A DNA stretch of 54,493 nt from assembly GCA_949298875.1 (NCBI GenBank), contig CASFYI010000024.1, forward strand, positions 1 to 54,493, read 5' to 3'. The stretch is from an uncultured Methanomassiliicoccales archaeon (GTDB taxonomy: Archaea; Thermoplasmatota; Thermoplasmata; Methanomassiliicoccales; Methanomethylophilaceae). The position numbers and the translations under genes are program-made. Below are positions 22,167 through 28,591 of the stretch, piece after piece; the first letter of the stretch is position 1, and every line of letters begins with the position of its first letter. The notes below the pieces were generated by a model that saw nothing but the letters and a program-made list of their open reading frames with translations, did not search any database and had not been told where the DNA came from.

Positions 22167-22685
22167 TCAGTTGTCGCCGCTGGTGACGTACTTCTTCGCG
22201 ATGTCGACGATGGCGCCGATGGCGAGGAGCACACCGCCCGCGACGCACACCCACACGCCGGTTCCGGCGCTGACGGATGCGCTGGCCAGACCCTCGAAGT
22301 CGACAGCGTCCATCTGTCCGTTGAACATGATGGCGAGGACGAGGGCCACGATGGCGAGGATCAGGGAGACGGCTCCGAGGATCCTGTTGATCGTGGGGAT
22401 CTTGTTGTAGACGATCGGGATGATCGTGGTGATGAGCGAGAGGACTCCCGCGACGAGACAGACGATCGGCGCGTAGGCGTAGTCGAACTCCACGTCGGTG
22501 AACTCCTGTCCCTCGATAGTCACAGTCCCGCTGAACACGTCCATTCCGGACATGGTGACGCTGGAACTGAACCCCAGGATGGAGATGTTCATCTCGGCCC
22601 AGGTGAGGAACACCCCGGCAATCATCAGCACGGAGCCGATGAGTCCGATGATTCCCATCCAATTGACATTACCTGAAGATGCCAT
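22167..22685 (-). CDS. Four-helix membrane protein of unknown function
   Basis: A 172-residue protein with hydrophobic segments near residues 10-28, 70-92, 100-122 and 143-163. Between the first two lies an extracellular-looking, Ser/Thr- and acid-rich loop (about 32-68). The C-terminus ends AKKYVTSGDN. No family motif is recognised. It is divergently transcribed from the ubiquitin-like gene, 76 bases apart, so the two share a promoter region. Confidence 0.65.
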   Translation of the reverse strand: MASSGNVNWMGIIGLIGSVLMIAGVFLTWAEMNISILGFSSSVTMSGMDVFSGTVTIEGQEFTDVEFDYAYAPIVCLVAGVLSLITTIIPIVYNKIPTINRILGAVSLILAIVALVLAIMFNGQMDAVDFEGLASASVSAGTGVWVCVAGGVLLAIGAIVDIAKKYVTSGDN

Positions 22686-22730
22686 GTTATCACCGGTCTT
22701 TGACCGTGCTCAATCAATCCTCTGCATCCG

Positions 22731-22740
22731 TATTTAAGAA
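22731..22740 (+). promoter_or_regulatory. TATA box for the ubiquitin-like gene
   Basis: TATTTAAGAA lies 22-31 bases before the ATG at 22762, predicting a leaderless transcript and supporting that start over the ATG at 22780. Confidence 0.6.
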
Positions 22741-22761: not shown

Positions 22762-23124
22762 ATGACGAATGGATGCGGAATGCCATGTGAAATACGGGTC
22801 ATCCAGCTCCGGGACGCTCTTTCATTGACGGATTCCGACCGTCTCGGGAGCGACATCTATTATCTGGGAGGTCGCTACCGTGCCCGTCGTGTCCCATATG
22901 ACGGGAGCGAATGTGGGAAGGGAGGGTTCAGAACGGCCAGGATATGCTTTTCGGACGGGTCCGTGGATGCGATCAAGGATCAGACGATCGAGGACGCGGT
23001 CCGGTCTTCGGGCCGCATCCCCGATTCCTATGTTTATCTCATCGCCGGACGCCCGGTGCCGATGGACACCGTCCCTCCGGAGGATTCCGAGGTCCGGGCG
23101 ATGAGGGTCGCCTCGGGCGGATGA
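22762..23124 (+). CDS. Ubiquitin-like (beta-grasp, MoaD/ThiS/SAMP-type) protein ending in Gly-Gly
   Basis: The 120 residues end VRAMRVASGG, with Gly-Gly as the final pair, the form needed for adenylation by an E1-like enzyme and for isopeptide or thiocarboxylate formation. The preceding stretch (YLIAGRPVPMDTVPPEDSEV, about 91-110) follows the beta-grasp pattern of ThiS/MoaD: a strand with a turn NG/AGRPV, then the D-x-V-x-x-x-D-x-V segment before the last strand. The N-terminal ~50 residues are longer than in MoaD, with two early cysteines. Role as protein modifier or sulfur carrier is inference. It abuts the convergent rqcH gene, stop to stop. Confidence 0.65.
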   Translation: MTNGCGMPCEIRVIQLRDALSLTDSDRLGSDIYYLGGRYRARRVPYDGSECGKGGFRTARICFSDGSVDAIKDQTIEDAVRSSGRIPDSYVYLIAGRPVPMDTVPPEDSEVRAMRVASGG

Positions 23125-25056
23125 TCACTCGTCCTCGTCCGGCTTCGGCCAGACCTCGCGGACGACCTCTATGTCGCCAGGGGGGACGATCCTGGAGATC
23201 TCCTCCTCGGGGACCTCGAACCTCTTGGCTATCTCGTTGGCCTTCCTTCCCGATTTGGGCTTCCCGGGGCGGATGACCATGTACTTGTCGCAGCCCTCGA
23301 AGCACTCGGCGGGGCCGCACATGACCTTCCTTGCTCCCTCGTGGTAGATCTCGCCGATGACCAGCTCCATCGGGAGGTGGTACTCGTAGTTCCTCTTGCC
23401 GCGGACGATGAACGCGCCCCTGGGCACGAACTCGCCGGGGTTGGGGGTCTTGCTGACCTGGTCGGGGAACACCCAGAACGCCCCTCCCTCCGAGAGGGCG
23501 GCGATCCATGCCTTGGACTGGGTGATGGCGAACAGGCACGCCTGGCGGAGCTCCTCTGGGGACGCCTTGGCGCCGTCCTTGATTACGACCGACGGCGCCC
23601 CGTGGACGTCAGCGTGGGCGTAGAGGTCGCCCTCCTTCAGGTGCTTCTTGACGATGTTGTCGTTACTGTGGGCGTCCCTGCCGGCCATGACGAGCCTTCC
23701 GCCGGTGGTGATGAACCACTTGTACCTCTCGAACCAGAACTGCTTGGTGGGCTGGGCGCGCTCGGCGGCGAGGGCCCTCTCGCGGTCTATGCCCTTCTGG
23801 ATCCTGGCCAGCTCCTCGCGGCTCTGGTCGAGGGCCTCCTTGGCGCGCTTGGCCTTCTCGCCCACGTCCTTGCCCTTCTGATAGAGGTCGGACGCGTTGG
23901 CGTCCACGCCCTTCTCCCAGTCGAGGGTCATCCATCTGCCGCCGAGCTGGGCGCGGACCGTGTGCTTCGCAGGGTCGATGGACTCGACGAAGGGGATCTT
24001 GGCGGCCCCCTCGGACAGCTTCTCCCACGTCAGCTTCGAGGACTGGTCCTTCAGGACCGCCAGGAGCTCCGTTGCCTTCTGGTAGTCGGTGTACAGCGCC
24101 TCGGCGTCCGCGCGGTGCTCCTGCTCCTGGACCAAGTACTCGTCGAGGGTCTCCTCCTGCTTGGAGATCCTCTTCATCATCTTCTCGACGGCCGGGTCGA
24201 CGTACGCCTCCTCGGCGGCCTCGCCGGTCTCCTTCAGATACGTCTCGATGACCTCGGACATGGTGCCGAACGGCTTGGCCTCCAGGTCGGAGCGGGAGAC
24301 CAGCGAGACGGGGGCGAAGTCCTCGATGGCGCCGTCCCTGAGGTAGGCGGTGGGTCTCGGGTCGCTGAGGACCGTCTCGACGATGCCCCTCATCTCCGCG
24401 TACATCCTGTGCACGTCGTCCTCTGGGAGGCCCGCCGCCGGGGCGGATTTGTCCACGCCCGCGCGCCTGCAGACCTCCTCGGCGTACTGCCCGCCGAGGT
24501 TCACGGCGGTGGCCAGCGTCCTGACGGCATCTGCGTCGGAGCCCCTGACGGATGCGGCGAACTCCTCCTCGGTGGATTCGGTGGGGTCGAACCTGGACTT
24601 GGGGGCGACGTAAGGCTCCCCCGGGCGGGTCTTCCTGTCCCTCCAGGTCTTCTGGACCAGGCAGTTCTGGATGATGCCGTCCTTCACCAGGAGCACGTTC
24701 CCTCCGCCGAACATCTCGAACACGAGGGTGTAGTCGCCGTCGGACTTGGACATGGAGACCTCCATGACCCTGTCGAACCCGACCTGCCTGACGCCGTTGA
24801 CGCGGGCGTTGTCGATGTACTTCCTGAGGAACGAGGCGAACGCCGTGGGCATGGTGGGCGTGTCGGGCTTGGACGAGGGGCAGAACAACCACTTCCTGTC
24901 CGCGAACAGCAGCTCCCTCTTGCCCTGGCCCTGGACGTTGAATCTGAAAAGGACGTTGCCGCCCCAGTGATGGATCTTGTCCATGTGGGCGCCCTCGAGG
25001 TTCGAGAGCTCGGTGACGACCGAGCGCAGGTCGAAGGCGCTCATCTCCTTCTTCAT
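23125..25056 (-). CDS. rqcH: Ribosome quality-control factor RqcH/NEMF (NFACT family)
   Basis: RqcH/NEMF binds stalled large ribosomal subunits and in bacteria and eukaryotes adds C-terminal tails to the nascent chain. The 643 residues have the full architecture: NFACT-N (1-~250, FDLRSVVTEL, FGGGNVLLVKDG), a HhH-like and long coiled-coil middle (about 270-460), and NFACT-R (about 455-570) with FITTGGRLVMAGRD, NDNIVKKHLKEGDLYAHADVHG landmarks and PRGAFIVRGKRNY. A C-terminal acidic tail follows. A TATA-like ATTATCTAATTA lies ~30 bases upstream. Archaeal members are thought to act in the same pathway. Confidence 0.92.
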   Translation of the reverse strand: MKKEMSAFDLRSVVTELSNLEGAHMDKIHHWGGNVLFRFNVQGQGKRELLFADRKWLFCPSSKPDTPTMPTAFASFLRKYIDNARVNGVRQVGFDRVMEVSMSKSDGDYTLVFEMFGGGNVLLVKDGIIQNCLVQKTWRDRKTRPGEPYVAPKSRFDPTESTEEEFAASVRGSDADAVRTLATAVNLGGQYAEEVCRRAGVDKSAPAAGLPEDDVHRMYAEMRGIVETVLSDPRPTAYLRDGAIEDFAPVSLVSRSDLEAKPFGTMSEVIETYLKETGEAAEEAYVDPAVEKMMKRISKQEETLDEYLVQEQEHRADAEALYTDYQKATELLAVLKDQSSKLTWEKLSEGAAKIPFVESIDPAKHTVRAQLGGRWMTLDWEKGVDANASDLYQKGKDVGEKAKRAKEALDQSREELARIQKGIDRERALAAERAQPTKQFWFERYKWFITTGGRLVMAGRDAHSNDNIVKKHLKEGDLYAHADVHGAPSVVIKDGAKASPEELRQACLFAITQSKAWIAALSEGGAFWVFPDQVSKTPNPGEFVPRGAFIVRGKRNYEYHLPMELVIGEIYHEGARKVMCGPAECFEGCDKYMVIRPGKPKSGRKANEIAKRFEVPEEEISRIVPPGDIEVVREVWPKPDEDE

Positions 25057-25081: not shown

Positions 25082-25750
25082 TTAGATAATGGGGATGCCG
25101 CAGATGGAGACGCTCTGCTCGGACATGTGCCTCTCCATCCTGTCAACCACCGCGGAGACGTCGCGCCTCTCATGCTCCAAGAGGGAGTCCACGAGCCTCA
25201 CGACGATCTCCATCGCCTTCCTCGTGTCGACCTTGTCGGGGTCGGACACCATCCTGTGGATGAACGCGGATGTGACGCCGGTGAGGGCGTCCAGGACCAT
25301 CAGCGGATGGTCGGAGTCCTTGAACTCGCTGGTCTCGTGCCAGGTCATGACGGTGTCGCTTATCCTGTCGCGGATGGCGCGCTTCTGGCTGATCAGGGAG
25401 AGCAGCTCGGCGACGCGGGGGGAGCGCTCGGAGATGTAGAGCTCCATGCAGAGGACGTAGGACAGCCTGTCCGACCATTCGTAATCGGGGTCGGTCTCCG
25501 GTGCCTGGTGGGCGACCTCGGCGAGGGCGATCATGATGATGTCCGAGAAGATCTCCTCCTTGCTCCTGTAGATGTTGTACAGGCTGCCGTTGAGGATGCC
25601 CACCCTCTGAAGGATCTGGCGGGTGGTGGTCTTCTCGTACCCCTGCTCGAGGAACAGCTTGACGGACTCCTCGAGGATGCGTTTCCGTATCCCCTCCGTC
25701 TTCTCGCTGCGCTTCCTGCGAATCTCCAGGTGTGATTGGGTTCCGCTCAT
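25082..25750 (-). CDS. TetR-family transcriptional regulator
   Basis: The 222-residue protein carries a typical TetR N-terminal HTH: RILEESVKLFLEQGYEKTT (about 24-42), TTRQILQRVGILNGSLYNIYRSKEE as HTH and recognition helix with the Y.Y/F.SKEE closing motif (about 41-66, only partly quoted). The rest is a helical ligand-binding and dimerisation domain. It is divergent from the MMPL transporter gene 157 bases away, with two palindromes sharing GAGCATG around the transporter's TATA box, so it most likely represses that transporter. Ligand unknown. Confidence 0.87.
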   Translation of the reverse strand: MSGTQSHLEIRRKRSEKTEGIRKRILEESVKLFLEQGYEKTTTRQILQRVGILNGSLYNIYRSKEEIFSDIIMIALAEVAHQAPETDPDYEWSDRLSYVLCMELYISERSPRVAELLSLISQKRAIRDRISDTVMTWHETSEFKDSDHPLMVLDALTGVTSAFIHRMVSDPDKVDTRKAMEIVVRLVDSLLEHERRDVSAVVDRMERHMSEQSVSICGIPII

Positions 25751-25906: not shown

Positions 25907-28591
25907 GTGAATCTCGTGTTCGAGAGATACGCTCAGCAGGTCCAGAGGCATCCCAAGGCAATCATCGCCGTCTGGGTGGTCGCTCTGATCGTGGCGCTGC
26001 CCTTCGCGGCGCAGATCGGGGATGTCCTGGCCTACGACATGACGTCCATGGGCGGACTGGACTCCGAGTCCTCGGAGGGCCAGGAGATCGTGGACAGTTG
26101 CTTCGAAGGTTCGATAGGCACCGACACGGTGCTGGTGATCCCGTACGATGACCAGGACGCGCTGGTCCGCATACAGACGGGTCTGCTAGAATCCGGCATC
26201 CTGTCGGATTCCCTCTACGACAGGTTTGGCGACGATGTGTCCTATGGCACGATGGGTGCGTTCGGCCGCGAGGGCTCCGAGAGAGGGGTCCTCATCCTCA
26301 GCCTCGCGTTCGGAGACGGCGTCTCGGCCATGGACGAGATCGGGAACGTGAGGTCGGCGGTAGCCGACGCGGTGTCCGAGGCTGGGCTGGATGTCAGGAC
26401 GTACGTCACCGGTTCTATACCGATCGCGTACGACACGCTGGAGAGCGCCGACGCGGACATCGCGAAGATCGACCCCCTGTCGATCCTGATCATCCTGGTG
26501 CTCCTGGGTCTGTTCTTCTGGACCCTGGTCACGGCGCTCGTTCCCCCGATAGTGGTGGGCACGGCGTACGGCACAGTCCTCGCGCTGGTCTTCGCGCTGG
26601 GGCAGTTCCTCGATATATTCTACATAACGAAGACCATAGTGCTCGTCTCGATGCTCGGGGCGGGCGTCGACTACTCCATCTTCATCATAGCCAGATACAG
26701 GGAGGAGCGCAACTATCACTCGAAGAGCAAGGAGGAGGCGCTAACCGAGGCGATCAAGTGGGCCGGAGAGTCGGTGCTCACCTCCGGACTCGCCGTGATC
26801 ATAGGGTTCGCGGTCATGTCCCTGTGCTCCTTCAGCCTGGTCTCGACCATGGCCATCTCGCTCGCGCTGGGCATCGTGGTCGCGATGCTCGCGGCGCTAA
26901 CGCTCATCCCCGCCATACTGGCACTCTGCGGGGACAGGATTTTCTGGCCCAGGAGGATCGAGGATTACACCGGTCAGAGCAGGATGCGCCACGGCGTCTA
27001 CGGGAGGCTGGTCTCCGCATCCAGGAGGTACTTCTCCTGGGCCGGCAGGTTCTCCACGAAGCATGCCTGGTCCATCGTGGCCGTGGCCATACTCATCACC
27101 GCTCCCCTCGGATATGTGGCGCTCACCTCCGAGGATTCCTTCGACATGATCAGCGTCATGCCCGACTCCGAGGCGAAGGAGGGCGTGGACGCGCTGACAT
27201 CCGCCACCGACGGCGGGTATCTGATGCCCACATACGTCCTGATCGAGACGGACGAGCCGGTCGCAACTATAAGCGACCTGGGCAACGGCGTCCGTACGCT
27301 GACATGGACCGATGCAGGTCTGGAGTACGTCTCGGCCCTCCAGTCCGGACTGATAGGATCGTCGCTGACGGGCGGCAGCCCCGGCGCCCTGCAGGCTTCG
27401 GACGACAACATCTCGCTTGCCATGGGGCCGACCCCCTGGGCCTATCTGTACTCGACCGTCGGATCGGTCGTGTCCGAACAGGTGTACCAGCAGGCCTACT
27501 CCCAGGCGTACGAGTCTGCATTCAAGCAGGCCGTCGGGGCCGGGATGGACGAGGATTCCGCCGCGACGGCCGCGGACGCGGCTGCGAAGGGGATCGCCGA
27601 GGGGTACGTGGCAGGATTCGTCACGCCCGAGGTCGTGAACCATGCGATCATCGAGCAGGCGGGTCTCCCGGACATGGTGACCGCTCCCCTGGCACGGTTC
27701 TTCGACGCATACGGCGCCTGGGGCCTCGCCCCCTCGGACATGCTGTCCCCGGCCGTGCCGGTGACCGTCGTCAGCCTCATCGACTACCAGCTGAACGTAT
27801 CCACGGGTCTGATCTCCTACGATTCGGCGGATCCGTCCGCGGGCACCGACGGCATGTACATGCGCATCATGGTCATCGTGAGCGACGAGCCCATGTCGCA
27901 GAGGTCGATGGACTCCATCGCCAGCGCAAGGGAGGTCATGGCCCAGTTCGCCGAGGAGAACGGCTGGGTCGCGGGGACCTGGGTGCTCGGGACCGGCGCG
28001 GTCCTCTACGACATCTCCGACGTCGTCGACTCGGAGTTCCACTGGATAGAGCTGGGTGTCGTGATCCTGATCTACATCCTGCTGCTGTTCGTGCTCGGGG
28101 TGTACTTCACGCCGATAAGGTCGCTCATGACCATCCTGATGAGCGTCCTCTGGACCCTGGGGGCGCTGCACCTGGTGTTCGCGGAGATGCTCGGCGTGGA
28201 TGTGATCTGGGTCGTGCCCATCGTGCTCTTCGTCATCTGCCTCGGGCTCGGCATGGACTACGACATCCTGCTGACCACCCGCATCAGGGAGGGGAAGCTC
28301 AAGGGCATGTCCAACGACGAGGCGATCCAGAACGCGGTCTCCTGGGCTGGATCCGTCATAACGCTGTGCGGACTGGTCATGGGAGGCACGTTCCTGACGC
28401 TGCTCACATCGGGGTCCAGCATGCTGCAGGAGGTCGGATTCGCGCTGGGATTCGCGATCCTGGTGGATGCACTGTTCGTCGTCCCGTACGTGGTGCCGGC
28501 GCTGATGCACCTGATGGGCGACTGGAGCTGGAAGGGTCCGAGGTTCCTAGCCGGGCGCAGGGACCCGGTCGCGCAGGACGGGGAATCCTGA
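25907..28591 (+). CDS. MMPL/RND-superfamily transporter
   Basis: An 894-residue membrane protein of the MMPL type with two symmetrical halves: a helix near residue 20, an external domain, then helix bundles around 190-350 and a second set around 720-880. The proton-relay motifs are visible as GAGVDYSIFIIARYREE (about 249-265) and GLGMDYDILLTTRIREG (about 780-796). It is expected to export lipids or hydrophobic compounds, or to modify membrane composition. The second external domain has an Ala/Ser/Tyr-rich insertion near 520-570. GTG at 25907 is leaderless relative to the TATA box, and no other start fits. Probably controlled by the divergent TetR. Confidence 0.88.
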   Translation: MNLVFERYAQQVQRHPKAIIAVWVVALIVALPFAAQIGDVLAYDMTSMGGLDSESSEGQEIVDSCFEGSIGTDTVLVIPYDDQDALVRIQTGLLESGILSDSLYDRFGDDVSYGTMGAFGREGSERGVLILSLAFGDGVSAMDEIGNVRSAVADAVSEAGLDVRTYVTGSIPIAYDTLESADADIAKIDPLSILIILVLLGLFFWTLVTALVPPIVVGTAYGTVLALVFALGQFLDIFYITKTIVLVSMLGAGVDYSIFIIARYREERNYHSKSKEEALTEAIKWAGESVLTSGLAVIIGFAVMSLCSFSLVSTMAISLALGIVVAMLAALTLIPAILALCGDRIFWPRRIEDYTGQSRMRHGVYGRLVSASRRYFSWAGRFSTKHAWSIVAVAILITAPLGYVALTSEDSFDMISVMPDSEAKEGVDALTSATDGGYLMPTYVLIETDEPVATISDLGNGVRTLTWTDAGLEYVSALQSGLIGSSLTGGSPGALQASDDNISLAMGPTPWAYLYSTVGSVVSEQVYQQAYSQAYESAFKQAVGAGMDEDSAATAADAAAKGIAEGYVAGFVTPEVVNHAIIEQAGLPDMVTAPLARFFDAYGAWGLAPSDMLSPAVPVTVVSLIDYQLNVSTGLISYDSADPSAGTDGMYMRIMVIVSDEPMSQRSMDSIASAREVMAQFAEENGWVAGTWVLGTGAVLYDISDVVDSEFHWIELGVVILIYILLLFVLGVYFTPIRSLMTILMSVLWTLGALHLVFAEMLGVDVIWVVPIVLFVICLGLGMDYDILLTTRIREGKLKGMSNDEAIQNAVSWAGSVITLCGLVMGGTFLTLLTSGSSMLQEVGFALGFAILVDALFVVPYVVPALMHLMGDWSWKGPRFLAGRRDPVAQDGES

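Follow-up and report, generated by a model that had tools for sequence, protein, structure and literature searches.

The open reading frame at 22762-23124 in the window (the whole 54,493-nucleotide stretch of DNA analysed here) raised the question of whether it encodes a new small archaeal modifier of 120 residues, as a preliminary description had proposed from its terminal Gly-Gly and its long N-terminal part. The frame itself was read as described. In the 120-codon reading it contains two N-terminal cysteines (Cys5 and Cys9), it ends exactly on Gly-Gly with VASGG directly before the TGA, and no moa or thi genes adjoin it. It is flanked by an ORF for a predicted membrane protein, for which the NCBIfam search gave no match, and by rqcH, whose stop codon abuts that of the modifier gene (TGATCA). 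At the locus, the gene neighbours gave no functional link, and no E2 or E3 genes were seen adjoining the modifier gene. Next to rqcH lie a predicted TetR-like regulator (25082-25750, minus strand) and, divergent from it, a large exporter-like membrane protein of 894 aa (25907-28591, plus strand), both named by eye only. The features are collected in Table 1. The genome carrying the modifier gene, G000, is that of a rumen-type methanogen and about 80% complete, and G020 is the closest relative used in the comparisons.

Table 1. Coordinates of the features at the modifier locus, and loci with a lost stop codon in related genomes
Feature	Position	Strand	Details
Predicted membrane protein, divergent neighbour	22167-22685	-	ORF listing
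TATA box CTTAAATAC	22730-22738	-	10.9 bits; same site on + strand 2.4-4.4 bits
Modifier ORF	22762-23124	+	ATG at 22762, 120 sense codons, TGA 23122-23124, end ...RVASGG
Open 5' stretch, probably untranslated, residues 1-57 ('N-terminal extension')	22762-22932	+	Comparison, codon usage, pLDDT
TATA-like CTATTATCT	22857-22865	+	6.5 bits; inside 45-nt identical block
GGGAGGG, Shine-Dalgarno-like (putative role)	22920-22926	+	6 nt before ACG; GGGGAGGGG in G020
ACG codon (Thr58) at the homologues' start-codon position	22933-22935	+	Same codon in G020
SAMP2-like ubiquitin-fold core with TGA	22933-23124	+	Residues 58-120, TARICFSDG...RVASGG; 63 aa
rqcH, convergent neighbour	23125-25056	-	NF041120, E 3e-181
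Stop-loss loci			L019 (G001); L011 (G026); L012 and L145 (G025); L010 (G028); L024 (G029)

The ubiquitin-fold core

A ThiS/MoaD pattern had been assigned to the last 30 or so residues. A ThiS- and SAMP2-like pattern is indeed present, but it spans about 63 residues. When the window protein alone was searched, it matched the SAMP2 models weakly (NCBIfam NF041919, E 7e-4; Pfam PF21965, E 0.0034) and missed both curated cut-offs (20.1 vs 70 bits and 18.2 vs 27 bits, respectively); it was therefore classed as SAMP2-like and not as a SAMP2 equivalog. The homologue set comprised 73 usable sequences plus that of G066. At E<=0.01, the NCBIfam SAMP2 model matched 63 of the 69 aligned members and the Pfam one matched 61. 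A profile made from the relatives matched solved structures, with SAMP2 as the best match (4hrs, E 7e-7, and 2l32 of Haloferax volcanii; 5lda of Pyrococcus), and also PF1061 (1rws) and TtuB. With these SAMP2 proteins the window protein shares a beta-grasp core of about 63-67 aa and the terminal Gly-Gly.

A structure prediction, which the preliminary description had suggested as a check, supported the ubiquitin-like fold. In the AlphaFold model the core has a pLDDT >90, and residues 58-118 are predicted with high confidence and show the beta-grasp pattern expected over the ~65 residues of SAMP2. A Foldseek search with the whole 120-residue model found TtuB (target-normalised TM 0.77, rmsd 1.9), ThiS and ubiquitin-fold proteins, all at E >0.001, because nearly half of this model has low confidence.

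The tail V116-A117-S118-G119-G120 was invariant in all 69 aligned sequences. The Gly-Gly stands directly before the stop codon in the window and in all homologues read except those of five species, where the frames run past it. Homologues extending beyond the Gly-Gly were an outcome that the preliminary description had named as refuting its reading, and it applies to these five species but not to the other homologues. Homologues, usually of 61-70 aa, were present in 30 of the 31 genomes of the genus and in 81 of 100 relatives. The presence of a SAMP2-like protein of this size in almost every related genome does not support a 'new' modifier; the SAMP2-like protein, with VASGG as its invariant tail, is spread over a family of uncultured methanogens and its order. 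The core is probably an ordinary sulfur carrier or modifier of the SAMP2-like kind, and its 63 residues are likely the real gene product.

The N-terminal extension and the start of translation

The N-terminal extension was not supported as a feature of the protein. DNA similar to it was found only in G020, where the frame meets a TGA after 45 codons and the rest is shifted by a 2-nt indel. The codon score of the extension was -0.42, compared with 0.48 +/- 0.12 (minimum 0.18) for 57-codon pieces of the window genes; the core scored +0.13. A frame of 57 codons stayed open in 7.6% of composition shuffles of the stretch and in 49% of random frames in the GC-rich window, and is therefore not unlikely to occur by chance. 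Nothing came out of an Rfam search with the extension or of folding it as RNA (z 0.13). A repeated or mobile element was rejected, as other copies are absent in the genus.

We consider it unlikely that a real protein of 120 residues is made, with an extension gained in this species and translated from ATG 22762 on a leaderless or nearly leaderless mRNA. Such a protein would be consistent with the frame being open from this ATG to the Gly-Gly, with the lack of any other usual start close to the core, and with G020, which has the same ATG and, on the plus strand, a TATA box of 8.8 bits at -30, fitting a leaderless transcript. The extension also had a dN/dS of 0.51 against G020 over 45 codons (6 synonymous and 10 non-synonymous changes), which is not decisive; for the core the ratio was 0.25 (3 non-synonymous and 4 synonymous changes), and both values rest on few changes. 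However, the TGA in G020 means that the core there needs another start, the codon usage lies far under that of genes, AlphaFold gave residues 1-50 a mean pLDDT of only ~44-51, and the remaining homologues lack the extension. Most likely, the 120-residue form is an over-called start and the extension is untranslated 5' DNA that stays open in frame by chance. The locus is hence rather probably that of a ubiquitin-fold protein of SAMP2-like type and ~63 aa, a sulfur carrier and/or a tag, preceded by 57 codons of DNA that is most likely 5' untranslated. This removes the candidate of a new modifier with an N-terminal extension and replaces it with a start-calling problem.

The start was compared with 27 genus homologues besides that of G020. 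Nearly all have an ATG or GTG at the Thr58 column or at most 2 codons away, the exception being G027 with an ambiguous start, and in 24 of the 27 the homologous start is preceded, at 28-32 nt, by a TATA-like box, as for leaderless transcripts. In G020, an ATG is found 7 codons upstream of this column. The window has no ATG, GTG or TTG at the homologous start, and the usual in-frame starts before it are those at 22762, 22780 and 22825 only. Judged from the sequence, the simplest reading is a start at the ACG in the homologous position behind GGGAGGG, so that translation would begin at 22933 behind a Shine-Dalgarno-like sequence. Initiation at ACG is generally weak. As an alternative, the assembly may be 2 nt short in the G-run, and this difference would bring the ATG at 22911 into frame, as in G020.

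The same 2-nt difference could also mean that the gene copy in the window is in decay or wrongly assembled: a G-run that reads GGGGAGGGG in G020 and GGGAGGG here would have lost two bases, shifting the former start ATG 22911 out of frame. Two extra bases in the G-run would give MWEGEGFRTARIC..., which matches MEGEGFRTARIC... of G020 (ATG at L002:1513). We regard this as improbable, since the core is under purifying selection against G020 with its VASGG intact, and the neighbouring genes are intact, which gives no sign of widespread indel errors. A scan of viral contigs revealed no second copy of the start region.

Two further elements were seen in the upstream DNA. The TATA box CTTAAATAC, upstream of ATG 22762, most likely serves the divergent membrane-protein gene; it is strong on the minus strand, and on the plus strand it is weak in the window but fair (8.8 bits) in G020. 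Within the extension, 45 nt (22841-22885, plus strand) are identical in the window and G020, third positions included, and only 65 of the 77 nt just upstream agree. This block with its CTATTATCT may be a promoter or regulatory element.

Partners and putative function

In Haloferax, SAMP2, UbaA and NcsA work together, and NcsA itself is tagged with SAMP2 (PMC4048286). The ubiquitin-like proteins of Thermococcus form conjugates and, besides, take part in thiolating tRNA and in the synthesis of cofactors (PMC11323500). An E1-like protein and a JAMM-motif protein, candidate counterparts of the SAMP2 partners, are encoded in G000. The E1-like protein belongs to the ThiF/MoeB/UbaA family; its best model was PRK08328, the UbaA model gave E 6.5e-33, both under cut-off, and it scored better on other models than on UbaA. 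The JAMM protein has the motif HSHx7SxxD. The window protein differs from SAMP2 in falling under the curated cut-offs and in its invariant VASGG tail, and conjugation or sulfur transfer is here only putative.

By analogy to the known systems, it would most likely deliver sulfur for the thiolation of tRNA and might also tag proteins. In such a pathway, the E1-like enzyme would adenylate the C-terminal Gly120, which would be converted to a thiocarboxylate, and the sulfur would be passed to the tRNA wobble-uridine thiolase NcsA. In addition or instead, the modifier could be attached to lysines of target proteins and be taken off again by the JAMM protease, as with Haloferax SAMP2. A clear NcsA-type thiolase was found in relatives such as G007 (E 5.8e-73 to NF047749, although the score stays under the cut-off of that model), and G020 has a candidate; no clear match was observed in G000, which is ~80% complete. 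TtuB (5gha, 5ztb), a sulfur carrier in tRNA 2-thiouridine synthesis, shares the fold and the terminal Gly-Gly, but its identity to the window protein is low (~11%) and an NcsA/TtuA partner was not clearly found in the incomplete genome.

The core might also be solely a ThiS- or MoaD-type carrier for thiamine or molybdopterin synthesis. It has the same fold and Gly-Gly end as ThiS, and some members of the family match ThiS models weakly. This reading is very improbable, because a ThiS of its own (TIGR01683, scoring over cut-off) is encoded beside its ThiF elsewhere in G000, and MoaE was not found in the ~80% complete G000 or in any genus genome searched. The window protein itself matched no ThiS model of NCBIfam or Pfam. 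The separate ThiS gene (L067:1799-2023, minus strand) ends in VGGG and lies directly upstream of its ThiF, the two ORFs abutting.

A functional cluster of the modifier gene with the E1 gene was rejected: in several species the E1-like gene lies 10-20 kb off, among unrelated housekeeping genes. At L063, L064 and L070, where the distance is about 10-11 kb, the conserved housekeeping genes between the modifier and the ThiF-family gene represent synteny. In G000, two near-identical ThiF-family loci were found at contig ends (L065 on C49 and L066 on C44); they are probably strain variants in the assembly.

Stop codon loss in five related species

In G001, G025 (both copies), G026, G028 and G029, a CGA replaces the TGA after the Gly-Gly, and the penultimate Gly is encoded by GGA, not GGC. 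The frames continue for 15-311 aa beyond the Gly-Gly (28 aa in G029, 38 aa in G001), antisense to a convergent cobyric-acid-synthase-like gene (named by eye), which has also lost its stop in those checked (G001, G026, G028 and G029). The abutting stops TGATCA have become CGATCG or CGATCC. The stop-loss modifier is under purifying selection (e.g. pS 0.51, pN 0.17 for G026 vs G001), in DNA that is also read antisense by the neighbour. In the gene trees, G017, with both stops intact, falls inside or beside the main stop-loss group and G028 falls outside, which implies either repeated changes of the stop or a reversal.

It is improbable that CGA is read as a stop, as the convergent gene of G028 has GGA for its stop. 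RNA editing from C to U (ACG to AUG, CGA to UGA) was set aside, since this GGA could not be repaired in that way. Among the matches listed, the C-terminal ends of the conserved genes compared in five relatives otherwise agree.

With a tail of 15-311 aa, the stop-loss modifier would need removal of the tail after the Gly-Gly by a JAMM protease, and a JAMM protein with HSHx7SxxD is encoded in the stop-loss genomes. In Caldiarchaeum, a JAMM protease cuts SAMP precursors (PMC6043591). These ubiquitin/SAMP precursors have their parallel in the five species with frames past the Gly-Gly; in contrast, the window protein ends at Gly-Gly and processing is unneeded. Tentatively, and with considerable doubt, the gene ends in this genus might be fluid, with a non-canonical ACG start here and, in the five relatives with both stops lost, a pro-protein whose antisense-derived tail would be cut by JAMM after the Gly-Gly. 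The stop-loss relatives thus seem to need C-terminal processing of the modifier and so provide a case in which the JAMM protease could be tested directly.

In G025, two modifier loci were found, L012 on contig C16 and L145 on C47. Over the modifier gene, the C16 copy does not differ from that of G026, and contig C16 may be mis-binned.
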